Shown one piece after another: positions 15,818 through 47,954 of a stretch of 64,000 nucleotides of DNA (its first letter is position 1; each line of letters begins with the position of its first letter). Position numbers and translations under genes: made by a program. The stretch is from Bdellovibrio sp. ArHS (GTDB taxonomy: Bacteria; Bdellovibrionota; Bdellovibrionia; Bdellovibrionales; Bdellovibrionaceae), in assembly GCF_000786105.1 (NCBI RefSeq), contig NZ_JTEV01000016.1:124001-188000 (forward strand), written 5' to 3'. Under the pieces are notes generated by a model, which made no database searches, was not told the DNA's origin, and saw only the letters and a list, made by a program, of their open reading frames with translations.

Positions 15818-15844
15818 TAATCTTTCACAGAAATGCTCCGATAA
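15818..15844 (+). promoter_or_regulatory. Sigma-28-like promoter of the pilin/collagen gene
   Basis: TAAT (15818-15821), exactly 15 bases, TCCGATAA (15837-15844). It has one mismatch in each element from TAAA-N15-GCCGATAA. Transcription would start near 15851, leaving a leader of about 70 bases before ATG 15920. Confidence 0.65.
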
Positions 15845-15919
15845 TTCGAGTGTTGATTGAGAGGAAAAGTTCATCCGTATCTATGTGTTTCGGAGAAATT
15901 CTGACGATCCTCAGCTGAA

Positions 15920-17071
15920 ATGTCTGAATTTAAAGAGTGGGAGATTGTTTTGAAAGACACATTTTTTTCTTGGTCTTCATGTCTATTGAAACGTCGCCTT
16001 TTTCCGAAGCAAGCAAAGGTGAGTGTCCCTAAGAAGAGAACCTCTGAGGCGGGATCCATCCTTGTTCAAGTATTAGTCTTAATTGGAGCTGTCGGATTCA
16101 TGGCGTCTGTTGTCGCTTCTTTAAGCCAACAAATGAACAAAAGCATGATGCAGTTTAACCTGACCACATCGGTCACACAGATACGGTTGAACTTGCTTGG
16201 GACCATCGGGAACGATGACGCCTGGACGGCTACGATAGAACATCCATCGAATGAATCTGTATTCAATTGTTTGAAAAAGGGCAGTCCTGCATGTGTGAAC
16301 GAGTCTAAACATGCTTTCAAGCTTTATGATGCTTCAAAAACTCTTGTTTACGATTCTACGAAACCGAACAATGGCTTTGCTACAAATGGCACTCCTTGCT
16401 CGACCTTCTCAGAGGCCAAGGGCGACGATGCCTGTCCTCTTCGTGTAAACCTATTTTGGGAACCCGTTTGTTCGAGCGATTGCAAACGTCCGCAGGACTT
16501 CGTTCGCGTGGAGTTTACTTATAAACCTAAGTCCCAAGATTTGGGACTTCTCTTTAATCCCACAAGACATTCGCTTCGTCAGTCGCGGATTTACCTGTCG
16601 AATGCGACCCCCGTGGTGACCTGTGGTGGTGCCGGAAAAATTTATTTACCTACGGGCTTCAACGGATTTAGCGCCGATAGCAATGGGTGCGTCGACCCCG
16701 TCGCCTTTCGCGGGCCAGCAGGGCCTCAAGGTCCAGCAGGACCACAGGGACCTGCGGGTCCACAAGGGCCGGCAGGACCGCAAGGACCTCCGGGGCCGTC
16801 GGCGGAAGCAGGAGCTGTGGCGTCTTCAGGAGGGGGCGCAGGAGGCACGGCCAGCAGTGGGAGTGGCACAGCAAGCAGCGGGACGAGCAGTCCCCCTGTA
16901 AGCGTTCCTGTCAAGGTGACTTGTCGAGTAGAGAGCATAAGTCTTTCAAATAGCGTGGGAATGCCTTCTTGTCCGGGTACCTATGCCATAAGTAGTGTCG
17001 CTTGTAGAAACGACGGAGAAAATGGTCATTGTGCCTTTACCTGCATTCGAACTGTTTGCTCTGGTGAATAG
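15920..17071 (+). CDS. Pilin-like anchored protein with collagen-like repeat
   Basis: 383 residues. A hydrophobic helix at about 46-68 (GSILVQVLVLIGAVGFMASV) follows a basic leader KKRTSEAG, the arrangement of a type IV prepilin N-terminus though without the usual Glu5. A globular region with several cysteines follows (about 75-260). Ten perfect Gly-X-Y triplets (265-294) come next, then a Gly/Ser/Ala linker and a cysteine-rich C-terminal domain (CRVESIS to CSGE, eight cysteines). The collagen stretch should trimerise. ATG 15920 has no clear ribosome-binding site. GTG 16019 would give a prepilin leader of normal length (about 12 residues) and is a serious alternative. Family and function are not known; a surface fibre or adhesin is likely. 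Confidence 0.8.
   Translation: MSEFKEWEIVLKDTFFSWSSCLLKRRLFPKQAKVSVPKKRTSEAGSILVQVLVLIGAVGFMASVVASLSQQMNKSMMQFNLTTSVTQIRLNLLGTIGNDDAWTATIEHPSNESVFNCLKKGSPACVNESKHAFKLYDASKTLVYDSTKPNNGFATNGTPCSTFSEAKGDDACPLRVNLFWEPVCSSDCKRPQDFVRVEFTYKPKSQDLGLLFNPTRHSLRQSRIYLSNATPVVTCGGAGKIYLPTGFNGFSADSNGCVDPVAFRGPAGPQGPAGPQGPAGPQGPAGPQGPPGPSAEAGAVASSGGGAGGTASSGSGTASSGTSSPPVSVPVKVTCRVESISLSNSVGMPSCPGTYAISSVACRNDGENGHCAFTCIRTVCSGE
16712..16801 (+). repeat. Collagen-like Gly-X-Y coding repeat
   Basis: Ten consecutive GPA, GPQ, GPP or GPS triplets, encoded by near-identical 9- and 18-base units rich in GGN CCN. Such tracts expand and contract easily and could be phase- or length-variable. Confidence 0.9.
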
Positions 17072-17082
17072 TCACGAATAAA

Positions 17083-17102
17083 GGGCGAAGAAACTTTCGC
17101 CC
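17083..17102 (-). terminator. Terminator of the Calx-beta-like lipoprotein gene
   Basis: GGGCGAA (17083-17089) pairs with TTCGCCC (17096-17102). On the minus strand the stem is followed by TTTATT, just past the stop codon at 17115. Confidence 0.6.
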
Positions 17103-17114
17103 GAGTTCTGCCGA

Positions 17115-17984
17115 TTACTGTCGTTCGTTGCGATAAAGACACGCTTCATGCCCCATATCGCTGGCGTACACGATTTTATCTTTATTCTCATCGTCATTAA
17201 TATTGATCGTGAAGTTCGACTCTTCCCAAGGCTGAATCACGTAAGCAGGTTGGGGATTTAAAAGTTGACCGGTTGCTTTATTCATCCACTGAGTTGCGGT
17301 GTTTAAACTCAAAGTGATTGATCGCGTCCCGTCTCGGAGGGAGTTGTTAATCAACTGGATTTTAAAGTGTGTTCCATAAAAAATATTTGTGACGGTGCCT
17401 CCGGTGGCTCGTCCTAATTCTGACGGGTCGAACTCGAAAGGCCCCAGCAGACGATAGTCTACTCCGGCAACGGCCGTACCACCCACTTTTAGGTAGTTTC
17501 TTCCCACGGTATTCGTCGGGTATTCCGTCGATGACGATGAAACTAATCGAACGACAAAAGTCAGGATTTCGTCACTTTCACAAACGTCGGCCTTATTGTC
17601 ACCATAGAGTCCCCCGGCGAGGACGGCGGCTCCGAGTCCTGCGGGGCGAAGAACATCCGAAGTCGAGAACACTTTTGCTCCCGCCATGGCTGTCGTATAA
17701 ACGAGACCGCGCATCAAATGAGCGTTGTCTCGACTGGCCTGAACGGGATAAGAGGGTTGAGTGGGCGCTGAAGCGGGAGGTGCCGCAGGCTCGGGAATGG
17801 ATGGGGTCGGATTGTCATCAGCGATGATGTCGGTATTAAGATCTGGAGTGCCAACGCTTGGTGACTGCACACTTTCTTCGATGACTTTAAATTGCATCGG
17901 ATTGTTAGAACAGTTTTGAAATAGAACCAAAGATGTCAAAATCCCCGGTAATAAGATGAATAGTACTCGACGCTTTGTTTCCAT
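17115..17984 (-). CDS. Lipoprotein with Calx-beta-like domain
   Basis: About 289 residues with a signal peptide METKRRVLFILLPGILTSLVLFQNC, where the Cys in FQNC is the probable lipidation site although the lipobox is loose. A Pro/Ala/Ser-rich linker follows (about 40-85). The C-terminal half has the pattern of a Calx-beta unit: GGTAVAGVDYRLLGPFEF, then FKIQLINNSLRDGTRSITLSL and INDDENKD. These modules are common in calcium-binding adhesins. ATG 17984 is chosen over ATG 18008 because GGGGGAAG precedes it. It is convergent with the pilin/collagen gene. The function is unknown beyond a probable surface location. Confidence 0.75.
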   Translation of the reverse strand: METKRRVLFILLPGILTSLVLFQNCSNNPMQFKVIEESVQSPSVGTPDLNTDIIADDNPTPSIPEPAAPPASAPTQPSYPVQASRDNAHLMRGLVYTTAMAGAKVFSTSDVLRPAGLGAAVLAGGLYGDNKADVCESDEILTFVVRLVSSSSTEYPTNTVGRNYLKVGGTAVAGVDYRLLGPFEFDPSELGRATGGTVTNIFYGTHFKIQLINNSLRDGTRSITLSLNTATQWMNKATGQLLNPQPAYVIQPWEESNFTININDDENKDKIVYASDMGHEACLYRNERQ

Positions 17985-18014
17985 ATCTTCCCCCAAAAAA
18001 ATCAACATGCAAAG

Positions 18015-18041
18015 ATCATGGCCGCCGTCTTGAAGGGTTTA
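18015..18041 (-). promoter_or_regulatory. Weak sigma-28-like promoter candidate
   Basis: On the minus strand TAAA (18041-18038), 15 bases, GCCATGAT (18022-18015). The spacing fits sigma-28 but the -10 matches only in part. It is upstream of the Calx-beta-like lipoprotein gene. Confidence 0.3.
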
Positions 18042-18394
18042 TTGGTCTTCTAGCGTTCAAGCCTTAGGCACTGTCTATTTTATAGTTTACATAAAGTTTG
18101 GTTGATGAAAATTGTCTAGTTACGTTCTTCCGCATCTTGAGATTCCAATGCTGATGTTTTAATCTCCCAGCGAACATTTGCTTCCATAGATATTTTAATA
18201 ATGCCGAAAGAGACCTTAGTGAAAGAGGAAGACTTCCCCCCAAAAAAAGATGATCTAAGGCCGCAGGGCCGCATACCAATATAGGTCGGTGTCTAGTTAG
18301 AGTAGTCGTATCATCACGGTTCAGTTGTGAGAGTTTCTCAGGAGAACATTATGCTATTTTTGTTCTCTGAGGCCCTTTTGTAGACGAACCTTCC
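18042..18394. other. Gene-free stretch with one hairpin
   Basis: No convincing gene on either strand. CTCAGGAGAAC near 18338 pairs with GTTCTCTGAG near 18363 with one bulge, followed by CCCTTTTG, and could be a terminator. A minus-strand stretch near 18230-18260 repeats the T7-G6-AAG string found at the start of the neighbouring lipoprotein gene, which hints at an old partial duplication. Confidence 0.4.
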
Positions 18395-18421
18395 TAAGGT
18401 TTCGAAGGAATAAGCCGATAC
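18395..18421 (+). promoter_or_regulatory. Sigma-28-like promoter of the lipoprotein/fibre operon
   Basis: TAAG (18395-18398), exactly 15 bases, GCCGATAC (18414-18421), with one mismatch in each element. The predicted leader before the first gene is about 100 bases. Confidence 0.6.
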
Positions 18422-18526
18422 TTTATAGTGTTAATTTTTTAGAACGGATAGGTGCCTCACTACATCCCTTCTTGAAAAAGACGTTAGGAAAATTCAGTCT
18501 GGAACGCGACTGTAAATAAGTGGGAG

Positions 18527-18796
18527 ATGAGCTTGGTAAGTAACTTTTTTTTCATAGCACTTATTGCTGTTACAATCTCAGCATGCTCGATGGAAGCAAG
18601 TTTAAGTGAATTGAATAAGGCACTTCCTTCGGGTCCCACTGACAACCCCTATAACCGCAAAGAGCCTGATTTTGTAAATGGGGAAACGGTGACCTCTCCT
18701 AATAACTACGTGGCAACGGGTGTTTTGGGTGAAATTTCTGAAGCTCAAACTTCCAGCAATGGCTATCAACTCGAAGGAGCTTTTTATGCGCAATAG
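18527..18796 (+). CDS. Small lipoprotein preceding a fibre gene
   Basis: 89 residues: lipoprotein signal MSLVSNFFFIALIAVTISAC (lipobox ISAC), then a short polar, Pro/Asn-rich mature part with no recognised fold. The start is uncertain: ATG 18527 directly abuts GGGAG, and TTG 18533 has better spacing. Its 3' end overlaps the start of the fibre gene by 11 bases, so the two are translationally coupled. It could anchor or secrete the fibre, but this is inference from position only. It may be specific to this group of bacteria. Confidence 0.72.
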   Translation: MSLVSNFFFIALIAVTISACSMEASLSELNKALPSGPTDNPYNRKEPDFVNGETVTSPNNYVATGVLGEISEAQTSSNGYQLEGAFYAQ

Positions 18797-21776
18797 TGTC
18801 ACACTTTTGCTTCTCGTACTCTTGCAGAGCTTTTCGGCCTTCGCACAAATTAAAGGCTATACTTTTCAAGGTTCAATCAAAAGACCTGACGGCACTCTGC
18901 CGACGGTGACGGGTTTAACCGTTAATTTGAAAATTCTAAATCCGGCGGGCTGTGTGCTTCGCGACGAAGACATCACGGGTGTTAATATCACTAATGGATA
19001 TTTCACTTTAGTCGTGGGTAAAGGAACGCCGACGGGTGATGATCCCGGTAAAACAATTCAGCAAGTTTTTAACAATGCGGTGAACATCGCAAGTGGTCTT
19101 AATTGTTTAGATGCTTCTAATAATGTTATTGCAAGCAATCAAGGCTACAATCCTGGCGCGGCGGATACTAGAAAACTGCGAATGTCGTTAGAGTTAGATG
19201 GTAATCCTATCGTCATGGACTTCAATATGCGCAGTGTTCCTTTCGCAACGAACTCTGAAACATTGAACGGTTTCAGTGATGCGAATTTTATCAAGACTTC
19301 AGCAAATATCACCCAGACGGCGGTTGAAAACTGGTTCTCAGGTGCGGTGATGGGTCAGCTTTCTGGCGGCACTTACAACGCGCCTTCAGCAACGACAGCT
19401 GTGAATGTCACAGGGACCGTCGCCATCGCCAATGGTGGTACGGGTGCGACAAGTGCGGCGGCGGCACGAACGAATCTTGGTTTGGGTGCTCTTTCGACAA
19501 TGACTCCGACTGGAACACCTGACGGAACAAAATTTCTTCGTGACGACGGAGTATGGACGGCTGTGGCTGGTGGTGGTGGCGCTGTTACCAGTGTAGCTGG
19601 CAAAACCGGTGCTGTCAGTTTGGTGGCGGCAGACATAACGGATTTCAATACCGTGACAGACGCCAGAATTTTGGCACAAATGCCAACGTTCTCTGGTGAC
19701 GTCAGCGGGGCCTACAATGCAACGAGCGTTGACAAGATCAAGGGAAAAACCGTTAGTGCAGCGCCAACAACAGCCGGGCAAGTCTTTAGATATGACGGTA
19801 CTGATTTGGTGCCAAGTTTTCTTTCGATGTTTGATCTTCGCTCAACAGTCACTGGCGCCAGCACATTCGGCGGCGGGGCTGCCGGTTGTACGGCAGGACA
19901 AACTTTAACTTGGACGGCGGCAACAGATAATCTGTCATGTACTAATATCGCTATCACCAGCGGCCAAGTCAGTGGCCTTGCAGCGTCAGCCACAACCGAT
20001 GTGACAAATGCGGCAAATATTTCTGCGGGCACATTGCCAGCGGGACGCATGCCGGCCCTGACCGGGGATGTTACAACGACGGCAGGAAGCGTGGGGACGA
20101 CTATCGCCAATAATGCCGTCACTTCGGCAAAGATTGCTGACAGTGCCGTGACTGCGGCAAAATTGGGTTCTGATGTCGGCTCTTGGTCCACAGATGGTAC
20201 GAATGTGTATAGACTCTCTGGGAAAGTCGGGATCGGAACGAACTCTCCATCAAGTGAACTATCAATTGTAAAAGATGGAAATGATTCCTCTCTTTCATTG
20301 GCGGCAGCAGGTACGGGACTTTTAAGTGGTCGAATCAATTCGTACTCAGCGCGAGGGACGATGGCGGCTCCGACCGTGAGTAAAGCACAGGACGTTGGAT
20401 TTAAAGCCTTCACATATTTTTACGACGGAAGTACTTATCGAGAGGGCACAGGGATCATGGGTATTCTTGAACAAGACGCCGCTTCCGATAGTGTGCCGTC
20501 TTCCTTGGTATTTAGAACGAATGCAGGGGCCGGTGGCTTTAGTACGGAACGGGTGCGAATTACTTCGGCGGGGAATGTCGGTATTGGTTCGGTATCTCCG
20601 ACGGCGAAACTTGAAGTCAACGGCGCTGCGGGGGCAACTCTGAAGATCGTTGACACGAATCAAGGTGCGGGAAAAGTTTTAACTTCAGACGCCAATGGCG
20701 TGGCTTCATGGGCCGTCGCGGGCGGCGCCTGGGTGACGTCAGCAAAAACGGCAAACTACACGGTGACCACCGCTGATAAGTCGACCTACTTCAAAGGAAC
20801 CGGCTCAATCACTTTCACGTTACCTGCTGCAGCCACTGCGGGCGCTGGCTTTATGGTCGGATTTAAAAATGCCGGCACAGGCACGGTCACAGTTCAGGCG
20901 AACGGTGCAGAGACTATCAATACCGTGAACTCCGTGGCGCTTTATCAATACGACACTATTATAATCATCTGTGATGGAACGAGCTGGGACTACTTCACCA
21001 GTTCTTCAAATAGTGGCAGCCCTACCTTTAATACAGCTCTGCCATTTAGTACGCCCGGCTCTACGACATTCACTATTCCAGCAGGTGTGACACGAATTCG
21101 CGTCAGTGTCCTCGGTGCCGGGGGAAATGGCGCTTCTGGAGTCTGGGCCGGCGGCGGCGCAGGTGGTGGCGGTGGCGGATATGCGCACGGTGTTTTTTCT
21201 GTCACGCCAGGAGCACAATATACCGTGACCGTCGGTGCGGGCGGGGCAGGCGGGGCTGGCGGCACGTCTTCGTTTGGTTCTTTGATCAGTGCAACGGGTG
21301 GTCAAAGTGGAATAAATACGACCGGTGGCGCCGGTGGCACTGGCACTGGTGGGTCCGTGCAACGCAGTGGTGGAAGTGGCGGGAACGGCTATACTGGTAA
21401 CACCAGCTACTCCGGCGGCGGAGGTGGATCTGGTGGTGGTTTCAATGGCAATGGCGCCAATGGGTTAAGCAGTTCTGGAAATAGCTATGGAGGAAACGGT
21501 GGCGCTGGTAGTGGTGGTGCCGCCCTTGGATCCGGCGGTGCAGCTAGCACTAATGGCGTCGATGGTGCGAGTGTAACGATAACATCCTTTACGACCGTTA
21601 ACAGCGGTGGCGGTGGCGGCGGCAGTGGTTCATGCTACAGTAATGGCAATTGGAAAGGTGGAAATGGTGGTTCCTACGGTGCCGGTGGTGGTGGCGGCAG
21701 TGGTGAAAACGGTGGGAATACTTGCTATGGCGGCGGTGGTATAGGTGCCCCAGGCTTTGTGCTCGTCGAGTACTAG
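18786..21776 (+). CDS. MAT-type fibre with glycine-rich tip
   Basis: 996 residues. A signal peptide (MRNSVTLLLLVLLQSFSAFA) precedes the conserved N-terminal beta domain starting QIKGYTFQG. Phage-fibre-like modules follow: NGGTGATSAAAARTNLGLG (about 217-236), a VDKIKG...GQVFRYDG unit and VGIGTNSPSSELSI repeats. The C-terminal region (about 758-996) is a glycine-rich tip like those of phage tail-fibre adhesins, with PAGVTRIRVSVLGAGGNG, repeated Gly runs and final GFVLVEY. The architecture matches the trimeric mosaic adhesive (MAT) proteins described in Bdellovibrio for prey contact. ATG 18786 is chosen because AAGGAG precedes it by 7 bases and it begins the signal peptide. It is co-transcribed with the small lipoprotein gene. 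Confidence 0.85.
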   Translation: MRNSVTLLLLVLLQSFSAFAQIKGYTFQGSIKRPDGTLPTVTGLTVNLKILNPAGCVLRDEDITGVNITNGYFTLVVGKGTPTGDDPGKTIQQVFNNAVNIASGLNCLDASNNVIASNQGYNPGAADTRKLRMSLELDGNPIVMDFNMRSVPFATNSETLNGFSDANFIKTSANITQTAVENWFSGAVMGQLSGGTYNAPSATTAVNVTGTVAIANGGTGATSAAAARTNLGLGALSTMTPTGTPDGTKFLRDDGVWTAVAGGGGAVTSVAGKTGAVSLVAADITDFNTVTDARILAQMPTFSGDVSGAYNATSVDKIKGKTVSAAPTTAGQVFRYDGTDLVPSFLSMFDLRSTVTGASTFGGGAAGCTAGQTLTWTAATDNLSCTNIAITSGQVSGLAASATTDVTNAANISAGTLPAGRMPALTGDVTTTAGSVGTTIANNAVTSAKIADSAVTAAKLGSDVGSWSTDGTNVYRLSGKVGIGTNSPSSELSIVKDGNDSSLSLAAAGTGLLSGRINSYSARGTMAAPTVSKAQDVGFKAFTYFYDGSTYREGTGIMGILEQDAASDSVPSSLVFRTNAGAGGFSTERVRITSAGNVGIGSVSPTAKLEVNGAAGATLKIVDTNQGAGKVLTSDANGVASWAVAGGAWVTSAKTANYTVTTADKSTYFKGTGSITFTLPAAATAGAGFMVGFKNAGTGTVTVQANGAETINTVNSVALYQYDTIIIICDGTSWDYFTSSSNSGSPTFNTALPFSTPGSTTFTIPAGVTRIRVSVLGAGGNGASGVWAGGGAGGGGGGYAHGVFSVTPGAQYTVTVGAGGAGGAGGTSSFGSLISATGGQSGINTTGGAGGTGTGGSVQRSGGSGGNGYTGNTSYSGGGGGSGGGFNGNGANGLSSSGNSYGGNGGAGSGGAALGSGGAASTNGVDGASVTITSFTTVNSGGGGGGSGSCYSNGNWKGGNGGSYGAGGGGGSGENGGNTCYGGGGIGAPGFVLVEY

Positions 21777-21800
21777 CCTCTTGTTGCAAAGGCTGTCACT

Positions 21801-23021: not shown

Positions 23022-23056
23022 TTGCTCTCCAGAATAAGTCTGTTATAGTTTGAAAG

Positions 23057-25515: not shown

Positions 25516-25542
25516 CAAGTTCCCCAAAAGATGGTCCGATAT
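25516..25542 (+). promoter_or_regulatory. Sigma-28-like promoter of the Ig/FGE lipoprotein
   Basis: CAAG (25516-25519), exactly 15 bases, TCCGATAT (25535-25542). The predicted transcript start near 25549 is 26 bases before the ATG at 25575. It therefore also argues against the longer reading of this gene from 25503. Confidence 0.55.
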
Positions 25543-25574
25543 TTTTGAGTGTTCTTCTTTTTCATTGGAGAGAG

Positions 25575-28500
25575 ATGTCTCAAAATTGCCTGTTTTTTCT
25601 TGTATTTTTGCTAGCCCTGATTTCGTCGGGCTGCGGGATTGAGGTTTCTCTTTCGAGCTTCGAGAAGAATTCGGGATTTTTAGGTGTAGAATCAACCCCT
25701 CGCTTCGTGAATATTGATAATGTGGCAACCTTCCCCATTTCAGGACTTTGTCCGATGGGGGCGACGCAAGTTGTTTTGGCGGTGGCGGATTCAGATCCTT
25801 TGATCGAAACAGTACTGCCTTGTGTGGAGGGTGTCTTCAGCGGACATGTCGACCTTTCTACGCTGCCAGAAGGGCCGTGTGTACTTCTTTTTACTGCTGA
25901 CAACGGGAGGTCTCGTTCATGGGTTGTAACCAAAGACACCACTCCGCCTTTGGTGCAGCTAGATGTGCTTGTTAGCTACATAAATCTAGATAACGTTGAA
26001 AATTTTTTTGTCAGCGGAACTTGCAGTGAAAGCGGTCAATTTGTTTATATCGAAGGCGGTCTTTTAAGATGGCCGATTTTATGCGGTGGTGGAAGCTTTG
26101 GCATTAATTTGAACTTGGTTTCGTTAGCTGATGGTGTCGTCAATCTGAGTGCTCAGCTTGCAGATGTTTCTGGAAATGAAAGTACGCACAGCCGAAGCAC
26201 GCAGAAAGACACAATTCGTCCTGATGTTGCACAGCTGGCAAGTCTACCGACATCGCCTTCGCCGCAAATTTATCTTTCGTCCTCTGTGGCGGGGGTTGAT
26301 GTCAAACAGTATGCCTATAAGGTGGGACCAGCTAGTAGTGTCACTTGTTCCGATATCGCAACGGGGTACGGAATTTGGGAAAATGTTGAGAATGTTCTGG
26401 CAGCTGATATTTCTGGCCTTGCCGATACTCTTCTTAAGCTTTGTGTTTGGAGTAAAGACGTCGCTGGAAATCGCCAGGCGGCGGAAGATATTTATGAATA
26501 TACGTGGCAAAAAGATAGCAGTATCGCGATGGCGACGATCAGTGATTTTGTCCCGGCAGGCATCGTCAGCAACAGTGGTGTGGATCGGACTGTCACTATT
26601 GGGGGACCAAGCATCACCCATTATAAAGCAGTGGTGTTGCACAATCAGTCCACCTGTACCGGCGCCAATTTTACCTCAGCCCCTGAAGCCGCCATTAGCA
26701 CAAGTTATACTTTTTCTATTGCTGCAGACGGAACTTACCTGGTCTGTGCTTTGGGAAAAAATGTAGCTGGCCACTGGCAAAGCGAGTTCTCCGCGACGGC
26801 GTCGAATCTCTTAGTAGTTGATCGAGTGCCACCTTCCTTAGTGTTGACCTCCACCGCAGGAAGCACGTTTAACACGCCGACAATGTCTGTGACGGCAACG
26901 TTTTCAGAAAACGTCGCGGGATTCACACTCAGTGATATTTCAGTTACGAATGGTGTGGCTTCCGAATGGGTCGGATCCGGAACAACCTATAGCTTTACGG
27001 TAGCGCCTTCCGGTCAGGGCCCCATTTTGGTGTCCGTAGGCGCAGCGGTGGTCACAGATGCTGCGGGAAATGCCAATGTGGCGGCGGCAAACCTGCTTAG
27101 AATTTATGACAGTGTATCCCCCATGCTGTCTCTTTCAAGTTCTGCCGCAACAGAATTTAATACTTCAACGATGACGGTGACGGCGACGTTTTCAGAGGAT
27201 GTGACAGGTTTTGCATTAGACGATGTGAGTGTCACAAATGGTATCGCGTCGATGTTAAGCGGTTCCGGCGCAATTTATAATTTCGTGGTAACGCCGTTGG
27301 GACAAGGCTCCGTAACTGTCGCCATCAGTGATCGTATCGCCTTAGATGCCGGCGGTAACGAAAATGCGGCGGCGACAGATCTGACGCGAATTTATGATAG
27401 TGTGGCACCTACAATCACAGGTCTAAGTGATGATGGCACTTGGAGAACTTCTAAGACATGGAACTGGAGTTGTAGTGAGACCTGCACCTTCAGGCACCTC
27501 GTCGATATGAGCGCAGTCAGCACGCCAGCGACTTCATTTAGTTCTACGACAACGGCGACACAAAGCTCTGGCTCTGGAACGTATTATTTGCATGTCCAGG
27601 CCCAAGACAGTGCCGGCAATAGCTCCCTGGTTCACGTGTCTGCCAAGATTGATAGTGTGGCGCCGGCGGCGCCTTCGGCCCTCGTCGATCAGAGCTATCT
27701 ATCGTCTCTCACGGCCAGTCCGGTGGTTACTTTTATCTCTGGAAGTGACAGCGAAAGCGGACTTAATAGACATGAAGCTCGGATCGTGAAGTTAGCCGAT
27801 GGGACGCCTCTGACCTCTTGGGAAAACTTCACTACAGGTGGAAGCTTTTCGGGATTACCACTTGCCAATAACACCGCTTATGCCGTTGAAGTCAGAGCGG
27901 TCGATAATACGGGAAATGTGTCATCGATAGTTCAAGGAGATGGTTGGATCGCAGATACCACCGCTCCCACTACCCCTGCGGATCTGTTGGCTGGAGCTGT
28001 GCCGGATAAATTAACAGAAACCCCTCCGTTGTCATGGACCGCGTCGACGGATGCAGGGGGGGCTGGTGTGGCTTATTATGAGGTGAAGATTTTCAGGACC
28101 TCGGATGACGTTAGCATGAGTTCGTGGACACCGCTGGCGAGTGGTTCAGCGGTGACGGGTCTTTCTTTAGATTTAAACACAAGTTACTATTTTAAAGTTC
28201 GGGCTTTTGATAATGCCGGCAACATGAGTGGTGAATCGGCGGCACGCTTGTGGACAAGCATGAATGATCCATGTCCGGCGAATTATATTCTTGTGCCCGC
28301 GATGGCAGGATATGCCAATCAAAATTTCTGTGTTGCCAAGTATGAAATAAAAAATATTGGTGGTGTGCCCACATCCCAGGCCAGTGGTGCTCCTTGGACT
28401 TCTATTCTTCGTGGTGAATCCGGAGGAGGGGGCGCCTGGAAGGCTTGCCGAGATCTCGGGTCTAAGTATGATCTGATCTCCAATGCTCAATGGCAGGCCA

Positions 28501-29051
28501 TTGCGAGAAATATCGTGATGGTGAATGCAAATTGGTCCGGTGGAAGTGTTGGTTCTGGAAGTTTGAATACTGGCCATAGCGACGATTCTCCGTCAGCGTC
28601 TCTTGCCGCAGACACCGATGATAACAATGCTTGTGCGGGAACGGGGCAGTCTTGCAGTAGTTCCGTATGGAATCTACAACGTCGTACACACGTTCTTTCC
28701 AACGGCAGAGTCATCTGGGATTTTGCCGGCAACGTCGCCGAGTGGATTCGCGACGACTACTTATCTATGGGTTGGAATCCGGTCCTGCCCGAAACCGCAG
28801 CTTGGACAGAGTTAAGCACTCTTTCTCCTACCAACCAAGCCATATTAGGTTCTGCCAATGGAGCCTGGAATTCAGCACAGGGATTAGGCATGGTTATTCC
28901 GCTGTCCAATGGTCAAAACGGTGTCCTACGAGGAGGTTGTTGGTGGAATGGAACCAGTCTGGCGGGAGTCTTCTTTGCGCATTTAGGTTGGCCTAATATT
29001 TCCGGATGGGAAGGTACAAATATTGGCTTCCGCTGCGTCTATGTGCCGTGA
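25575..29051 (+). CDS. Large lipoprotein: Ig-like and FN3-like repeats, C-terminal FGE/lectin-fold domain
   Basis: 1158 residues. A lipoprotein signal MSQNCLFFLVFLLALISSGC starts at ATG 25575, with GGAGAGAG just upstream; an in-frame start at 25503 would bury it. A series of beta-sandwich repeats follows. Two neighbouring ~98-residue Ig-like units are close copies (TMSVTATFSENVAGFTL and TMTVTATFSEDVTGFAL). FN3-like segments come next (YYEVKIFRTSDD, YYFKVRAFDNAGNMSG). The last ~260 residues match the formylglycine-generating-enzyme / C-type-lectin-like fold: FCVAKYEIKN, WDFAGNVAEWIRDD, VLRGGCWW and IGFRCVYV. I see no obvious copper-binding cysteine pair of true FGE, so a ligand-binding role like DGR-type lectins is more likely. 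A smaller secreted protein gene follows 57 bases later. Confidence 0.85.
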   Translation: MSQNCLFFLVFLLALISSGCGIEVSLSSFEKNSGFLGVESTPRFVNIDNVATFPISGLCPMGATQVVLAVADSDPLIETVLPCVEGVFSGHVDLSTLPEGPCVLLFTADNGRSRSWVVTKDTTPPLVQLDVLVSYINLDNVENFFVSGTCSESGQFVYIEGGLLRWPILCGGGSFGINLNLVSLADGVVNLSAQLADVSGNESTHSRSTQKDTIRPDVAQLASLPTSPSPQIYLSSSVAGVDVKQYAYKVGPASSVTCSDIATGYGIWENVENVLAADISGLADTLLKLCVWSKDVAGNRQAAEDIYEYTWQKDSSIAMATISDFVPAGIVSNSGVDRTVTIGGPSITHYKAVVLHNQSTCTGANFTSAPEAAISTSYTFSIAADGTYLVCALGKNVAGHWQSEFSATASNLLVVDRVPPSLVLTSTAGSTFNTPTMSVTATFSENVAGFTLSDISVTNGVASEWVGSGTTYSFTVAPSGQGPILVSVGAAVVTDAAGNANVAAANLLRIYDSVSPMLSLSSSAATEFNTSTMTVTATFSEDVTGFALDDVSVTNGIASMLSGSGAIYNFVVTPLGQGSVTVAISDRIALDAGGNENAAATDLTRIYDSVAPTITGLSDDGTWRTSKTWNWSCSETCTFRHLVDMSAVSTPATSFSSTTTATQSSGSGTYYLHVQAQDSAGNSSLVHVSAKIDSVAPAAPSALVDQSYLSSLTASPVVTFISGSDSESGLNRHEARIVKLADGTPLTSWENFTTGGSFSGLPLANNTAYAVEVRAVDNTGNVSSIVQGDGWIADTTAPTTPADLLAGAVPDKLTETPPLSWTASTDAGGAGVAYYEVKIFRTSDDVSMSSWTPLASGSAVTGLSLDLNTSYYFKVRAFDNAGNMSGESAARLWTSMNDPCPANYILVPAMAGYANQNFCVAKYEIKNIGGVPTSQASGAPWTSILRGESGGGGAWKACRDLGSKYDLISNAQWQAIARNIVMVNANWSGGSVGSGSLNTGHSDDSPSASLAADTDDNNACAGTGQSCSSSVWNLQRRTHVLSNGRVIWDFAGNVAEWIRDDYLSMGWNPVLPETAAWTELSTLSPTNQAILGSANGAWNSAQGLGMVIPLSNGQNGVLRGGCWWNGTSLAGVFFAHLGWPNISGWEGTNIGFRCVYVP
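26860..27410 (+). repeat. Tandem duplicated Ig-like module
   Basis: Two adjacent coding units of about 290 bases share aligned motifs (TVTATFSE, DSVSP/DSVAP, VTNG, GQG). They indicate an internal duplication inside the lipoprotein gene, diverged enough to differ at many codons. Confidence 0.65.
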
Positions 29052-29579: not shown

Positions 29580-32500
29580 TTACCAAGCCGCTTTGATCAT
29601 GATCGTGGGGCGATGGCATTGCCCGGTCCCCACACTTGAGCGGCCATAAAGATAAAGATGGGCTTCGTTTTCTTCAAAGCCCAGAGTTCCCCACAGATCC
29701 ACCCAGCCGCTTGAAGCTTTGACGAAGGTGCCGGAACGAGAAATTTCCGTGGCCGTGAGTTTCACAATACTCGCATCGTCTTTTTGATAAACGACCGAGG
29801 CGTAGGTGGTGCCACCATTTGTGTTCTGCATCCAGCAAGAAAGTTTAATATAGAGTTTTGTGTATCCCGCGGCTTTCAGATCGGACCATGGGATGAAGCC
29901 GCCATTATTGGAAGGCCCCGCGGCGACATCGCTGGTTGTGGTGAAGTCGTACATGCCACCACTTGATAGGGGAATATAGGTCGCATTAGTTTGTGAACGA
30001 ACAGCACCGTTGACTTCCAGAGCTGTCGTGGGATTTGTTGTGCCAATACCGACTTTGCCTGAGTTCTGAAAGATCACACTGTTGCCTAAACTTGTAGAGC
30101 CTGTCCAAAGTGGCACGTAGCTGGCCGTCCCGCTGCCAACACTGGCCGTCGTTGTTCCGCCGGCCCACTCGATAATAATAAATCCATTAGATCCGTTGAC
30201 GCCGCTGGAAGCACCATTCGGTCCACCAGCGCCGCCGGCACCGATGCTGCCAGTAAGAATCTGACCCGGTGTGACGGCCATAGTTTTGATGGCCAGTCCG
30301 CCCCAGCCTCCGTCGTAAGTGCTGCCATCTCCACCATACGCCCCTGAGCCCACAAGGTTGACGTCACCGCCAGTAGCCGAACCTGGCGAACTGCCATTAC
30401 ATCCACCGGAACCACCGAAGGCGGTGATCGTGCTAAAAGTTGAAGCGCCGCCGTGGCCGCCTGAGGCGGTATTCGCGGCACAACCTCCGGCCCCAGCCCC
30501 GGCGACGGTCACACGAATTTGGGAAACGCCGGCAGGCACAGTAAAACTCATAGCGCCCGGGCTCGTAAAATATTGGCGTTGTGATAAATTAATTCCTAAA
30601 GAACTCCACGTCGCGCCATTGCAGAATTCCATTTGTGGAATCGATGAGTTGTAGCGAATAGCGCCGGCGTTGGCGGGGACACAGGCCGTGCCCTTGTTGC
30701 CAGCGCGGATTTCGCCGTTCACATCGAGTAGGACCTGGGGGGTTGCAGTACCGATTCCAAGGCTGCCACTATTAGCGAGGGTCATCGCCACGATGTCATT
30801 GGTTTTAAAATTCAAAGCGTTGTTATCAACCGTTCCTAAGGTGGCGGTTCCCGCAAAAGAATTTCCGCCGTTAAGAAAGACCGCACTTTCTGTGAAGGCG
30901 GTACAAATCATCATTCCCGAAGAATCAAAGGTCAAAATTTTGCCTACACCACAGTTAAATGTCGTCAGCGAATTGCCGGTGCCATCTGAAGCGACCAATC
31001 GGTTGGCGATGAAAGAGGTTGCCGCTGTTCCCCCTTTGTTAACAGGTACGACAGAAGGAAAGTTCGCAGGATCTGCCGAGATAGTCCCCGAAGAAACCGC
31101 AATGCCGGCGCCGATTTGCACTGCCCCTTTAGCCGCAGTTGTCGCATCACTGATAGAAATCGCCGGAGTCGAAGATCCCGAAGTCACAATAATCGGAGCC
31201 GTGCCTGTCACATTTGTGACAGTCCCGAAGTTTGGAGTGATCCATTCTAAACCCGATGCTTGTGCAGAATTTGCCGAAAGAATTTGGCCATTGGCCCCGA
31301 CAGGAAGACGAGCGTTGTTTGTGGCATCCCGAACTAAAAGGTCCCCCTTCATTGCCAAAGGCGAAAGTCCGTTGAAAGCGGCAAGCGCAGAGGTTTGTCC
31401 AGTTCCGCCATTGGCAATCGGCAACGTTCCGGTCACTTCATCCGCAAGATCGACGGAAGAACTGTTGCTGGCCGCCGTTAAACGACCTTGGGCATCGACG
31501 GTGATATTTGCCCGTGTGTACGAACCTGGTGTCACGGCGGTATTTGCAAGAGAAACAGTCCCGGTGCCAGTAATGGGTCCACCCGTTAAGCCTGTTCCTG
31601 TCGCGATATTTGTGACAGTGCCCCCGGTATTGTTGTCGCCAGCAGGAAGCCATTTCACACCGTCGTATTTTAATATCTGACCTGAGGTGAGTCCGGTAGT
31701 GTCAATCTCAACCCCTTTGATTTTGTTAACGGAAACGGCTCCGATAGTGCCACTGACATCTCCAGCAACCGAGACGTTGATCGACTGACACTGAAAGCCA
31801 AACACCGCGCTCCAGGTCATAGTTTGATGAGGCAAACAGCCCGCTGAACTGACATATCCGTCGAAAGTCGATTTCAAAAGATAGGTATTTAAGGTGGCAC
31901 TCAGATTGGTCACATCACCCATCGAGATTCCCGCGCCCCCCCATTGGGTGCCGTCAAACTTGAAATATTGACCTGAACTCGGCGCGACGGCTGAAATCAA
32001 AGTGTTTTGCAGTTTCGCTACAGAAGGATTTGGATAAGTCCCGCCTAGATCACCTCCAGCAGTTCCTTTCGGAGTGCGGGCGTCGCTGAAGCGCGTGTCA
32101 TCGCCGGCAGCAACTGTTCCGGCACTGATGCCGACATTCAAGGTCATTAAAGGTGTCGACGTGTTATTGGTAATCGTAAGATAGGAATTGGCAGAGGTGA
32201 CACTCGTCACCGTGCCGCCACTGGCGCCGCTAACAGGAGCACAGAGTAAAGCAGAGCCGTTCCATTTCAGAAACTCGTTGGTGGCACAAGTCGGAACTCC
32301 CGTTTTGACGACAAAGTCATTTTCGGTCTTTGTGCCCAATCTTTCTGCCGATCGCGCGTAAGCAGAATAAGGCACGGAACGAATTTCATTCGATGGCGAG
32401 ATCACTTTCCATCCCGCTCCGTCATGAAATTGCACTTTTAAAAGCCGGATATCCCCGGAGCCAGGTACATACGGAGCACCACCGCCATAACAGATTTGCG

Positions 32501-32819
32501 CCTGCGAGTTATTGAACGCATCTAAAAGAGTAAAAAGAGGATCGGTGGGAAAGAGCTTTGTTCCGGAACCGATGGGAACGTCAAAAACACCACGTGAATT
32601 CAACATGCTGACGCCATCTTTTTGTTCGCGGTATATCACGCAATTTCCGTTGGGACTGGTGATTTCAAATAGAAAGCTGACGTTGTTATGCTCGAGGGGC
32701 TGACCGTCCGTATTGACGATGCGACCTTGATACGTCAAAGCATTAGGTGACGCAAAAGCGGGTGAACCTAATAAAATCAGAGCGCCAAGAATAATAAACA
32801 AGCACGTCCCGGTATTCAT
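29580..32819 (-). CDS. MAT-type fibre with glycine-rich module and C-terminal tip domain
   Basis: 1079 residues. Signal peptide MNTGTCLFIILGALILLGSPAFA, then the conserved N-terminal domain SPNALTYQGRIVN. Fibre modules include NKIKG...GQILKYDGVKW, ANGGTGQTSALAAFNGLSP and LGIGTATPQVLLDVNGEI. A glycine-rich module (about 750-885; TVPAGVSQIRVTVAGAGAGG to NGFIIIEW) is followed by another VGIGTTNPTTALEVNG unit and a ~150-residue C-terminal tip (GGFIPWSDLKAAGYTKLYIKL to HRPTIMIKAAW), probably a beta-sandwich that contacts ligand. The glycine-rich part is therefore internal here, not terminal as in the first fibre. No Shine-Dalgarno precedes ATG 32819, and a sigma-28-like -10 element ends only 11 bases upstream. 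Confidence 0.85.
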   Translation of the reverse strand: MNTGTCLFIILGALILLGSPAFASPNALTYQGRIVNTDGQPLEHNNVSFLFEITSPNGNCVIYREQKDGVSMLNSRGVFDVPIGSGTKLFPTDPLFTLLDAFNNSQAQICYGGGAPYVPGSGDIRLLKVQFHDGAGWKVISPSNEIRSVPYSAYARSAERLGTKTENDFVVKTGVPTCATNEFLKWNGSALLCAPVSGASGGTVTSVTSANSYLTITNNTSTPLMTLNVGISAGTVAAGDDTRFSDARTPKGTAGGDLGGTYPNPSVAKLQNTLISAVAPSSGQYFKFDGTQWGGAGISMGDVTNLSATLNTYLLKSTFDGYVSSAGCLPHQTMTWSAVFGFQCQSINVSVAGDVSGTIGAVSVNKIKGVEIDTTGLTSGQILKYDGVKWLPAGDNNTGGTVTNIATGTGLTGGPITGTGTVSLANTAVTPGSYTRANITVDAQGRLTAASNSSSVDLADEVTGTLPIANGGTGQTSALAAFNGLSPLAMKGDLLVRDATNNARLPVGANGQILSANSAQASGLEWITPNFGTVTNVTGTAPIIVTSGSSTPAISISDATTAAKGAVQIGAGIAVSSGTISADPANFPSVVPVNKGGTAATSFIANRLVASDGTGNSLTTFNCGVGKILTFDSSGMMICTAFTESAVFLNGGNSFAGTATLGTVDNNALNFKTNDIVAMTLANSGSLGIGTATPQVLLDVNGEIRAGNKGTACVPANAGAIRYNSSIPQMEFCNGATWSSLGINLSQRQYFTSPGAMSFTVPAGVSQIRVTVAGAGAGGCAANTASGGHGGASTFSTITAFGGSGGCNGSSPGSATGGDVNLVGSGAYGGDGSTYDGGWGGLAIKTMAVTPGQILTGSIGAGGAGGPNGASSGVNGSNGFIIIEWAGGTTTASVGSGTASYVPLWTGSTSLGNSVIFQNSGKVGIGTTNPTTALEVNGAVRSQTNATYIPLSSGGMYDFTTTSDVAAGPSNNGGFIPWSDLKAAGYTKLYIKLSCWMQNTNGGTTYASVVYQKDDASIVKLTATEISRSGTFVKASSGWVDLWGTLGFEENEAHLYLYGRSSVGTGQCHRPTIMIKAAW

Positions 32820-32830
32820 AGCTGTAAGGC

Positions 32831-32857
32831 TTATCGGTGCTTGGAAACACTTTATTA
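32831..32857 (-). promoter_or_regulatory. Sigma-28-like promoter of the second fibre
   Basis: On the minus strand TAAT (32857-32854), exactly 15 bases, ACCGATAA (32838-32831). A start about 7 bases downstream would give a leader of only about five bases before ATG 32819. Confidence 0.62.
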
Positions 32858-38441: not shown

Positions 38442-38443
38442 AA

Positions 38444-38463: not shown

Positions 38464-38469
38464 GGGGAT

Positions 38470-39600: not shown

Positions 39601-39674
39601 AGAAGCCCCCCCAACAAAATCTAAAAGACGTGGACCTGCAATGCAAGCCCGGCGTCTTTACCTGAATAAAAAAA

Positions 39675-40598: not shown

Positions 40599-40781
40599 AT
40601 GCAGTCTCCTTGTTTTATATAAGTCATAACAGAAGATTTCCTAAAACTGAAATCTTATGGCTGACACGGGGTTTATGATCCAGGACATATTCCGGGGGTC
40701 TACACGGTGGTATTTATTCAATTGAGCTCGGATGCTCATTCAAGATGAAGCGAAAGGCTCACAACCACAAAAGGAGTATTT

Positions 40782-41174
40782 ATGAAAATCGCAAAATTAA
40801 TATTGGCAGCCATGGTTTCTATGAGTCTGAACGCATTTGCTGGTCAAGCAGAGCCAGTTGAAAAAGAAGTGCAGATTGGCATCAACGGTGTTTACGTTCC
40901 AGGCGGTTTCGATTCTGCGTCTGACGTCTTTGTGGTTGTGAACGGAATTTTCCAAAACGGATGCTATAAATGGAAAAGAGCGGATGTGAGCCACTTGGAT
41001 ACCTATTCTCATGAAATCAAGTCCATCGCCTCTGTCAGCCCTGGCATGTGTTTGATGGTCTTGATCCCATTCCAAAAAGAAGTTCGTTTGGGTAAATTCG
41101 CTGCCGGCAAACACGTTTTGCGTTTCGAAAATGGCGACGGAACTTACCTTGAAAAATCTTTGATCGTTGAGTAG
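40782..41174 (+). CDS. Small secreted beta-rich protein, unknown
   Basis: 130 residues with signal peptide MKIAKLILAAMVSMSLNAFA. The mature protein is beta-rich (VQIGINGVYVPGGFD, DVFVVVNGIFQNGCYKWKRADV) with two cysteines (NGCYKW and PGMCLMV) that may form a disulfide. AAAAGGAG is about 5 bases upstream of the ATG. It is followed by a lipoprotein peptidase gene in the same direction after a hairpin. No family is recognised. Confidence 0.75.
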   Translation: MKIAKLILAAMVSMSLNAFAGQAEPVEKEVQIGINGVYVPGGFDSASDVFVVVNGIFQNGCYKWKRADVSHLDTYSHEIKSIASVSPGMCLMVLIPFQKEVRLGKFAAGKHVLRFENGDGTYLEKSLIVE

Positions 41175-41198
41175 CTAATTCAATAATCACGGTTCGCA

Positions 41199-41222
41199 AA
41201 AGGGATCTGCAAAGGTCCCTTT
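41199..41222 (+). terminator. Weak hairpin between two secreted-protein genes
   Basis: AAAGGGA (41199-41205) pairs with TCCCTTT (41216-41222), followed by GTGATTTC. A poor T tract makes it an attenuator at best. Confidence 0.35.
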
Positions 41223-41252
41223 GTGATTTCATGTCACTGAGGGGCGCGCTCC

Positions 41253-42611: not shown

Positions 42612-42982
42612 TGCTTGCGAACTCGATCCTAGGACTGTGGATTTTCACCAGTCTGATCTATCAGGGTGAACCGATGCCTTTGCCGAACCCCTCTTTGAAA
42701 ATTCAGTATCAGTTCGAAGATACGGGAATGAACACTCTGCGCTATCACCGTGAAGGCGAGCAAGGGTTCTGTGAGCGTCGCGCCCTCTATGAATTTTCCG
42801 AAGGAAAACTGGTGCAACAGGTCGTCTGGGTGAATCCTCAGAACGCTTTTAGCTGTCATCAGGATATGGACATGCGCTTGGGCTATCAAAGCTGGTCGAA
42901 AGCTTGGCTAAAGGACGGGAAGTTTTATCTGGCAGTTCAGATGGGTGAAGAAAATCTGATCTACGTTTGGGAAAAAAACTGA
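42611..42982 (+). CDS. Small protein coupled to the peptidase, unknown
   Basis: 123 residues. The ATG shares one base with the upstream TGA, so translation is coupled. A hydrophobic N-terminus (MLANSILGLWIFTSLIYQG) could be a signal or anchor. The rest is beta-type (LKIQYQFEDTGMNTLRYHREGEQGFCERRALYEF). No family is recognised. It is possibly a partner or inhibitor of the peptidase, but only position suggests this. Confidence 0.7.
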   Translation: MLANSILGLWIFTSLIYQGEPMPLPNPSLKIQYQFEDTGMNTLRYHREGEQGFCERRALYEFSEGKLVQQVVWVNPQNAFSCHQDMDMRLGYQSWSKAWLKDGKFYLAVQMGEENLIYVWEKN

Positions 42983-43044
42983 AGAACCTTTGGGCTTTTG
43001 GCAAAAAGAAGATATCCTAAAGAGGACCTAAAGAAGGGAACTCT

Positions 43045-43434
43045 ATGAAGCATCTTAAATTGATCGTAATCGTCGTCACGGCGTTGTTCTCATCGCTGAC
43101 TTTGGCGCAAGAGCCTCCGCGTCCCGGCGACCCTCAGTTCGGCGCAGAGGGGCGTTTGCTGATTCTTAAAGTGGTGCCTGGTGATCGAACCGCCAAACTT
43201 TTCTTCGTGGGAAAGAAGGCCGCCGAACTCGACTTCAACAAAGATCATAAACTTCTTTCCGTCACCGCCCTTAAGAACGGCCAAACCGAGACTTTGCAAT
43301 TTAAAAATAACGGAGACTCTTACGAGGTCTTCGGTCTTCCTGGTGGAAAAGAACCTTATTCGCTGGGTGTAAAGTCTGAAGTTAAAGGCAAGGTTGAAGA
43401 ACTTAAGGTGAAGATTCAGCCCGCAAAGCCTTAG
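43045..43434 (+). CDS. Small secreted protein, unknown
   Basis: 129 residues with signal peptide MKHLKLIVIVVTALFSSLTLA. The mature part is basic, lacks cysteine and has beta-type segments (LLILKVVPGDRTAKLFFVG, ETLQFKNNGDSYEVFGL). GAAGGGAA precedes the ATG by about 6 bases. It is convergent with the CsoR-type regulator gene, 15 bases apart. No family is recognised. Confidence 0.7.
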   Translation: MKHLKLIVIVVTALFSSLTLAQEPPRPGDPQFGAEGRLLILKVVPGDRTAKLFFVGKKAAELDFNKDHKLLSVTALKNGQTETLQFKNNGDSYEVFGLPGGKEPYSLGVKSEVKGKVEELKVKIQPAKP

Positions 43435-43449
43435 CGTTTTACGGACGAG

Positions 43450-43710
43450 TTAAATATATTTTGTGATTTCCTTGATCTCGTCCAGATCAATATTTTTGTG
43501 ATTGCCGTCCAGGCAGTGCTCGATGTGATCGTGAATATAAACGCTTTTCGCCGCAGCAATTGCCTTGGTGACGGCGTGGAGTTGGCGCGCAACATCGACG
43601 CATTCTCGCTGCTCTTCAAGCATCGCAATCACAGTTTCCAGATGCCCTTTGGCGCGCTTTAACCTTTTCGAAACATCCTCGTGACTTGCATGTTGCTTTT
43701 TGTTTGACAT
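43450..43710 (-). CDS. CsoR/InrS-type metal-sensing repressor
   Basis: 86-residue all-helical DUF156 repressor. The metal ligands are C37, H62 and C66, with the same spacing as the Cu(I) triad C-H-C of CsoR and the Ni(II) sensor InrS. The Ni/Co sensor RcnR has His at the third position. The basic helix VSKRLKRAKGHLETV gives DNA contacts. It is divergent from the ferroportin gene, with a palindromic G/C-tract operator between them. Copper, nickel or iron could be the inducer; the ferroportin neighbour favours nickel, cobalt or iron. Confidence 0.85.
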   Translation of the reverse strand: MSNKKQHASHEDVSKRLKRAKGHLETVIAMLEEQRECVDVARQLHAVTKAIAAAKSVYIHDHIEHCLDGNHKNIDLDEIKEITKYI

Positions 43711-43718
43711 GTGCTAAA

Positions 43719-43737
43719 TATCCCCTCCCCGGGGATA
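43719..43737. promoter_or_regulatory. CsoR/RcnR-type operator
   Basis: TATCCCCTCCCCGGGGATA: 7-base inverted repeats around TCCCC, a C/G tract flanked by A/T-rich ends as in CsoR-family operators. It lies 8 bases from the regulator start and 2 bases from the ferroportin start, so binding would block both genes. Confidence 0.7.
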
Positions 43738-43739
43738 GG

Positions 43740-45041
43740 ATGTCAAGAGTGATGAAAAAGTTATTTACGATGGAAACCCAGATTCTTTTAGGCCGTTTGC
43801 TGACAAGGTCCGGCGACCAGGCTTGGGATTTTGTTATTCCTTTCGCACTTCTGCATGTCTTTCCGGGGAAGATTCAAATCGCCGCTCTTTATTATCTACT
43901 TATCAAAATCGGCGGCTTTCTGCTAACGCCTTGGGTGGGACGCTGGATTGATACCAATCAACGTCTGCGGGTTGTGAAGGCCGGCGTCTGGATTCAATTT
44001 GTTGCCGTTCTTGGTGGTGTCGTTATTTTCTATGTGCTTGATGAAGCTGTTCATACGGGCGCGCCGTCGGATTTATGGATTGCCACTTTGTTTTTGCTAC
44101 TTTCTGGCGTGGGGATTTTAGCGTCATTGGGTTCGTTGATCACCGATATTAGTGTTGGCAACGATCTGGCTCCAACCCTGGTGCCCGCGGAAAAATTAAC
44201 CTATTTCAACAGTTGGTTACGGCGTATTGATTTGGGGACAGAGGTGGGTGCACCGATTGTTGCTGGCGTTCTTTTTTCTTTGAGCTCGGTGTACAGTCAC
44301 CACTTCGGTCTGTTTTTGATTGCTCTTTGGAACATGCTTTCTTTTGCCCCGGAATATCTGCTTTTGACCAACGTGATTAAAAAGTCCGGTCTGAAAAACA
44401 AAGAAGTCAGTTCGGCGAAAAGCTGGGCCGAACTTTTTTATTTTAATTGGAAGGACTCTTTAACGAGCCCGATTTTCTGGTTGATCTTCAGTTACGCTCT
44501 GTTGTGGCTGTCGGTCCTCAGTCCACATGGTGTTTTGTTAGCAGGATATCTGAAAGACAAAATGGCGTTGCCGGAAGCCGAGATCGGAGTTTTTCGCGGA
44601 CTGGGGGCGATCTTTGGGCTGTTCTCGACTTTGAGTTTTCCAGTGTTGGTAAAAAAAGTCGGACTGATTGAAAGTTCAAAAGTGCACCTGGCTTTTCAAG
44701 CACTCACCCTTTGCGTGGGCATCGTGGCGTTTTCGTTCGGGACCTCCTGGAGCACTTACATCTTTTTATCCTGCATCTTGCTTTCGCGAATCGGTCTGTA
44801 TGGCTTTTCCAACGGAGAGTTTGAGTTGCGGCAAAGAATGATTCCCGAGGGAAAAAGAGGACAGCTCAATTCCTTCAGTCACTTGACGACGACTTTGGCG
44901 ACGCTTTTGCTTTTTGGCGCGGGCAGTGTTCTTTCGAGCACCAGCGACTTTAAATATCTGGTGTATGCATCGCTCGCTGCCGTTCTTCTGGCAAATGTGG
45001 TCTTTCTAAGATGGGCTAAAGCGACCGAGGGTGGAATATAA
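43740..45041 (+). CDS. Ferroportin, BbFPN-like divalent metal exporter
   Basis: About 434 residues of a major-facilitator-fold exporter. The sequence follows B. bacteriovorus ferroportin as I remember it almost throughout: LGRLLTRSGDQAWDFV near the N-terminus, with the aspartate corresponding to BbFPN D24, SLGSLITDISVGNDLAP, LTYFNSWLRRIDLGTEVGAP, LWLSVLSPHGVLLAGYLKD and LSRIGLYGFSNGEFELRQR. BbFPN exports Fe(II) and also carries Ni or Co. The start could be 43740 or 43752 (MKKLF); the latter fits the BbFPN N-terminus equally well. It is controlled by the adjacent CsoR-type repressor through the shared operator. Confidence 0.92.
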   Translation: MSRVMKKLFTMETQILLGRLLTRSGDQAWDFVIPFALLHVFPGKIQIAALYYLLIKIGGFLLTPWVGRWIDTNQRLRVVKAGVWIQFVAVLGGVVIFYVLDEAVHTGAPSDLWIATLFLLLSGVGILASLGSLITDISVGNDLAPTLVPAEKLTYFNSWLRRIDLGTEVGAPIVAGVLFSLSSVYSHHFGLFLIALWNMLSFAPEYLLLTNVIKKSGLKNKEVSSAKSWAELFYFNWKDSLTSPIFWLIFSYALLWLSVLSPHGVLLAGYLKDKMALPEAEIGVFRGLGAIFGLFSTLSFPVLVKKVGLIESSKVHLAFQALTLCVGIVAFSFGTSWSTYIFLSCILLSRIGLYGFSNGEFELRQRMIPEGKRGQLNSFSHLTTTLATLLLFGAGSVLSSTSDFKYLVYASLAAVLLANVVFLRWAKATEGGI

Positions 45042-45122
45042 GAGCTCGGGTCTTGTTCCGCGAAATACCACGCCAATTGCGAATTAAATACATGAAAATC
45101 CGTTGTATTCCCAGATTGTAAC

Positions 45123-45150
45123 TAAGGTTCCCATAGATGGGTTCCGATAA
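45123..45150 (+). promoter_or_regulatory. Sigma-28-like promoter of the third fibre operon
   Basis: TAAG (45123-45126), 16 bases, TCCGATAA (45143-45150). A start about 7 bases downstream would be at or next to the ATG at 45158, giving a leaderless transcript. The spacer is one base longer than in the other copies. Confidence 0.5.
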
Positions 45151-47953: not shown

Positions 47954-47954
47954 A

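Follow-up and report, generated by a model that had tools for sequence, protein, structure and literature searches.

FliA-type promoters at prey-recognition fibre loci of Bdellovibrio sp. ArHS and a fixed start-codon spacing that predicts leaderless adhesin transcripts

Five surface-protein loci in a 64,000-nt stretch of the Bdellovibrio sp. ArHS genome (the window, C16:124001-188000), three of them encoding probable prey-recognition fibres, lie behind strings that match the promoter consensus of the sigma factor FliA (sigma-28). In the main class of such fibre genes, surveyed in 24 genomes of the genus, the start codon lies exactly 8 nt beyond the end of the -10 box CCGATA, and a short element, GNACGT, usually follows 10–20 nt inside the gene. 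From the motif, its position, spacing and conservation, and the identity of the genes, we infer FliA dependence, leaderless starts and a function of the element. The joint reading, to which a probability of roughly 0.83 is assigned, is that the sites are FliA promoters, that most of these fibres and a set of lipoproteins form a leaderless class in which GNACGT acts on the transcript, and that a second class of fibres is expressed from operons.

Promoter sites and genes of the window

The sequence-only reading of this DNA had placed five sigma-28-type strings ahead of scattered fibre loci, and all five occur at the coordinates and on the strands given for them (Table 1). CCGATA is exact at every site. 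The -35 element begins with TAA at four sites and with CAA at the remaining one, so that the site at 25516, while present, matches at only 8/9 positions. When the 220 nt ahead of each of the 57 predicted genes were scored against TAA-N16..18-CCGATA with a threshold of 8/9, seven genes were retained: the five already noted, a minus-strand gene at 60491-61243 and a minus-strand gene at 17115-18008, the last with CCAATA only. The gene at 60491-61243 raises the number of FliA-type candidates of the window to six. A weaker copy claimed for a chemoreceptor gene (14201-15703, MCPsignal) did not hold up, as no site of at least 8/9 was found there. Four TAA-type sites were counted where the density across the genome predicts 0.8 (Poisson P about 0.01, a post hoc comparison), and single 8-9/9 matches do arise by chance in a 64-kb window.

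Table 1. Promoter sites, in-gene elements and associated genes in the window
Feature	Position	Strand	Remarks
FliA-type promoter 1	15818..15844	+	TAAT-N15-TCCGATAA, exact string; predicted start near 15852; upstream of 15920-17071
Pilin-like protein, collagen-like Gly-Pro-Gln repeat	15920..17071	+	Prepilin-like N-terminus; weak Collagen match below cut-off
FliA-type promoter 2	18395..18421	+	TAAG-N15-GCCGATAC, exact string; predicted start near 18429
Small lipoprotein, gene 1 of lipoprotein-MAT operon	18527..18796	+	Lipobox ISAC; same order ahead of other MATs
MAT-family fibre, Gly-rich tip, operon gene 2 with Shine-Dalgarno	18786..21776	+	N-domain profile 174.7 bits; Gly_rich_2
FliA-type promoter 3	25516..25542	+	CAAG-N15-TCCGATAT, 8/9 match; predicted start near 25550
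Lipoprotein, bacterial Ig-like domains and FGE-like tail	25575..29051	+	Big_12, Ig_Rha78A_N; FGE-sulfatase match below cut-off
MAT-family fibre	29580..32819	-	N-domain profile 251.5 bits
GNACGT element (GGACGT) of fibre 29580	32804..32809	-	Locus L163
FliA-type promoter 4	32831..32857	-	TAAT-N15-ACCGATAA, exact string; CCGATA 12 nt before ATG
FliA-type promoter 5	45123..45150	+	TAAG-N16-TCCGATAA, exact string; CCGATA exactly 8 nt before ATG
MAT-family fibre, C-terminal Peptidase_S74	45158..47953	+	N-domain 239 bits; PF13884
GNACGT element (GAACGT) of fibre 45158	45171..45176	+	Locus L164
Fibrinogen-C/COLFI-like secreted protein, operon gene 2	47943..49379	+	PF00147, PF01410
Glutaminase-like secreted protein (Gln_deamidase_2)	60491-61243	-	CCGATA 10 nt before ATG
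Extra CCGATA	61254-61259	-	10 nt before ATG of 60491-61243; 8/9 with its -35

Profile matches place one common beta-rich N-terminal domain directly after the signal peptide of the fibres at 18786, 29580 and 45158. This domain is the hallmark of the mosaic adhesive trimeric (MAT) fibres (Caulton et al. 2024, PMC10769870), which were earlier annotated as "cell wall anchor" (PMC10769870) and one of which, Bd2740, occurs at the surface during the attack phase (PMC11003981). The assignment of these three loci to prey-recognition fibres, made from sequence, is therefore supported. The N-domain profile has 19 matches in the ArHS genome, a 3.54-Mb draft in 47 contigs, and 21 in B. bacteriovorus HD100, a member of the same genus; the latter number agrees with the published MAT count of 21 (PMC10769870). 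The identity of the HD100 genome is further borne out by a c-di-GMP-I riboswitch at the published merRNA position (1,073,741-1,074,185). Of the variable adhesive tip or S74 chaperone typical of MAT fibres, fibre 45158 has S74 and fibre 18786 a Gly-rich tip. For fibre 29580, no Pfam tip domain was found, and a scan of genome contigs returned a single relative, from a Bdellovibrio sp. MAG. Homologues of the pilin/collagen gene occur in few Bdellovibrio genomes.

The five sites differ in their distance from the start codon. The site at 45123 stands, and the start of its gene is corrected from the ATG at 45137 to that at 45158, most likely the true start codon since the former falls inside the promoter. 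Transcription would then begin at 45158 itself, the A of AUG, in exact agreement with the leaderless layout described below. The predicted start of promoter 4, near 32823, leaves a leader of 4 nt. Because the sites at 15818 and 18395 are far from their start codons and that at 25516 leaves a leader of ~25 nt, leaderlessness is not shared by all five.

Fixed spacing and the in-gene element

A total of 127 MAT loci from the 24 Bdellovibrio genomes were surveyed, with start codons that are predicted but mostly the single ATG possible before the signal peptide. An exact CCGATA lies within 300 nt upstream of 83 of these genes; the distance from its end to the start codon is exactly 8 nt in 67 of the 83 and 7–13 nt in 79, while a reversed control gave three scattered matches. 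If any fifth base is permitted, 93/127 MATs possess the box at 7–13 nt. Conservation was tested in this way for MAT promoters as a class. A Shine-Dalgarno-like word precedes none of the 93 leaderless-type MATs versus 17 of the 34 others, an absence that is partly forced because the -10 box occupies that place. Of 51 non-redundant cases, 50 have a pyrimidine immediately ahead of the AUG, and the upstream flanks vary freely. The -35 element is degenerate in most MAT promoters: a cognate TAA at the right spacing was detected in 24/72 MATs, compared to 2–11 at wrong spacings.

Leaderless mRNAs of bacteria start at the AUG and possess no Shine-Dalgarno sequence. Among the FliA-type small RNAs of HD100 given in Table 2 of PMC3627812, APsRNA6 and APsRNA7 begin 8 nt after the -10 box and APsRNA3 begins 12 nt after it. 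With CCGATA located 8 nt before the AUG, and two of these three starts at the same distance, the fibre mRNAs should start at the AUG if MAT promoters act as those two do, and MAT mRNAs are accordingly predicted to be leaderless from their spacing and the published sRNA starts. A separate observation concerns APsRNA5 of HD100 (605,300-605,750; L373), which does not appear in the FliA-dependent listing of PMC3627812: its published 5′ end lies 24 nt past the end of a CCGATA box. Processing of the RNA or an overlooked promoter may account for this.

MATs are paralogues, and close pairs are partly alike in their upstream and signal-peptide regions. The FliA promoters could thus be real while the spacing was simply inherited through duplication of genes together with their upstream DNA, with no leaderless function. 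Such an origin is improbable. After removal of pairs with at least 70% identity, CCGATA still stands at 8 nt in 51 promoters, whereas their flanking columns are low in information. The same layout is found in five further HD100 genes that encode MAT-unrelated lipoproteins (L382, L384, L386, L387, L388), and the spacing extends beyond the genus to further genera of its family (L360, L361, L365, L366, L367). The paralogues are nonetheless not independent, a dependence for which the redundancy filter and the lipoprotein cases correct only partly.

The leaderless-type MATs are further set apart by GNACGT, which occurs 10–20 nt after the A of AUG in 62/72 non-redundant members versus 12/32 other MATs (P 1e-6). 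The element might have reflected a Gly-Thr motif of the signal peptide, conserved at the protein level, but two observations rule this out. The Thr codon that follows Gly, Cys or Arg is ACG in 56/69 cases versus a background of 27% (P 1e-20), and out-of-frame GNACGT is present in 11 of the 41 MATs with no in-frame copy versus 12 of 419 background genes (P 1.5e-8). The codon bias and the out-of-frame copies argue that the element is conserved as nucleotides. In the 24 genus genomes, the composite pattern CCGATA-N7..10-ATG-N3..24-GNACGT has 212 matches versus 14 for its reverse; those examined in HD100 are all MATs or MAT-unrelated lipoproteins, with the element in differing frames. Across leaderless-type FliA genes, GNACGT is seen in all three reading frames. 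A search of the HD100 attack-phase sRNAs for a pairing partner yielded only scattered ACGTNC words (APsRNA2, 3 and 7) and none that was convincing, and the 16S rRNA, sought for the same purpose, was not found in the assembly searched.

More than half of the 19 ArHS MATs fall outside the leaderless type. Among MATs with Shine-Dalgarno leaders in this genome, five sit behind a small lipoprotein gene. A FliA-type site precedes the lipoprotein at 9/9 positions in L170 (promoter 2 of the window) and L180, and at 8/9 in L175 and L176; in the fifth operon, L179, none was found at a plausible place. Likewise, no convincing FliA-type site was found for the MATs of L168, L169 and L174. The recurrent order of a lipoprotein and, close behind it, a MAT (L170, L175, L176, L179, L180) suggests a lipoprotein-fibre pair.

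The motif in the genome and the FliA regulon

TAA-N16..18-CCGATA has 102 matches in the ArHS genome versus 65 for a reversed-pattern control. The sequence-only reading had proposed a genome scan for enrichment upstream of secreted or fibre genes. Among matches that were recovered and placed, 45/100 fall between genes and no more than 250 nt ahead of one, versus 6/60 for the control, with genes near the matches called by a hexamer model trained on the stretches around them. In 36 of the 45 upstream sites, a purine occupies the position 9 nt after CCGATA, the place at which a transcript is expected to start. Signal peptides were predicted (by a crude predictor) for 23/44 site genes versus 132/432 others (P 0.006). 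Among the genes that follow the sites are fliL and those for two methyl-accepting chemotaxis proteins, a CheA-like kinase, four PilZ proteins, a Flp pilin, a Tad ATPase and Ig-like lipoproteins.

The four PilZ-domain (c-di-GMP-binding) proteins lie at L015, L020, L093 and L124, and link the regulon to c-di-GMP signalling. At L107 (C15:90532-97883), FliA-type sites occur ahead of both the Flp pilin gene and a Tad gene with ParA/T2SSE domains, and the first of these sites is near-identical to one at 106367-106393 of HD100.

The sigma-28 assignment itself is well founded. The motif corresponds to the published attack-phase consensus, a FliA gene is present (C10:65934-66605; TIGR02479, 281 bits against a cut-off of 189.6), and fliL, chemoreceptor and flp/TAD genes share the motif. 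FliA control of the window loci is strongly supported and partly known already, their dependence on FliA being inferred. A CCGATA-like box could instead be read by another regulator or sigma factor, for instance the product of another sigma-70-family gene, given that TIGR02479 has five matches in the genome, only one of them above the cut-off, and that the -35 elements of MAT promoters are weak. This is less probable still than inherited spacing, since the motif is identical to the FliA consensus as stated in PMC3627812, the flp1/TAD promoter answers to Bdellovibrio FliA in E. coli (PMC5430801), and fliL and chemoreceptor genes carry the same motif. Least probable of all is that the five matches are chance products of a loose pattern picked after the window was read: about 55 of the 100 genome-wide matches are indeed chance-like and not placed upstream of a gene, but the control falls far short of the upstream enrichment and the fibre promoters keep a fixed distance across 24 genomes, which refutes chance for the MAT loci, though an individual site (that at 25516 or at 15818, for example) may yet be due to it.

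Relation to known systems and proposed mechanism

In the report by Karunker et al. (2013), 140 attack-phase promoters of B. bacteriovorus were mapped, of which 92 possess TTAAG-N16-CCGATA, the same consensus as here; cell-surface anchors, chemotaxis, proteases and flagella are among the targets, and FliA was proposed as the global attack-phase regulator (PMC3627812). Avidan et al. (2017) demonstrated FliA dependence of the flp1/TAD promoter by reporter in E. coli (PMC5430801). The core idea of a FliA-run attack-phase programme is therefore not new. Since MATs were once called "cell wall anchor", their control by FliA is probably implicit in the 2013 targets as well. The passages of PMC3627812 considered here leave the MAT class, the 8-nt spacing, leaderless mRNAs and the in-gene element untreated. 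Because fliA is essential (PMC5430801), its deletion, suggested as a check by the sequence-only reading, is infeasible.

The TAD/flp operon (PMC5430801) resembles the MAT loci in that a predation-related surface structure is under FliA, and ArHS has a site before its flp pilin gene at L107. It differs in encoding a pilus rather than a fibre, and in that L107, whose site is 23 nt ahead of the start codon, is not leaderless. The MAT study (PMC10769870) meets the present data in the three window proteins with the N-domain, one of them ending in S74; FliA is not mentioned in its main text, and transcript architecture was outside its subject. Relative to leaderless mRNAs in general, the layout appears to differ in comprising most of an adhesin class, in its alternative sigma factor and in a conserved GNACGT within the coding region. 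No report of leaderless mRNAs in Bdellovibrio or of the GNACGT element was found in a literature search that excluded most subscription journals, and the leaderless layout and conserved in-gene signal appear to be undescribed so far. The fixed spacing and the in-gene element also go beyond what the earlier reading had claimed.

The mechanism proposed under the joint reading is as follows. RNA polymerase bearing FliA would use the five sites, which would place MAT fibres and surface lipoproteins in the regulon of the swimming attack phase. Where CCGATA lies at 8 nt from the start codon, as in the principal class of MATs and some surface lipoproteins, transcription would begin at the A of AUG. 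The resulting leaderless mRNA would lack a Shine-Dalgarno sequence, so that promoter position alone would set the translation start. GNACGT, 10–20 nt into the gene, might then act on the leaderless transcript through its translation, its stability or a bound regulator, which is a guess. In the second MAT class, a FliA-type promoter would serve the lipoprotein, and a Shine-Dalgarno sequence the downstream MAT. For the broader proposition, that the fibres and many lipoproteins form a leaderless FliA sub-regulon of the family in which GNACGT is a new RNA or DNA control that selects or times adhesins of the non-growing attack phase, the chances are judged to be about even.

The joint reading would connect the FliA attack-phase switch with the MAT prey-recognition fibres at individual promoters, across the family. 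If it is true, fibre expression would drop as FliA activity drops after prey entry. From the 8-nt spacing, many adhesin mRNAs are predicted to be leaderless, which has a bearing on how transcripts are selected for translation in a non-growing, fast-swimming cell. CCGATA-N8-AUG, usually together with GNACGT, would offer a signature by which more attack-phase surface proteins may be found.
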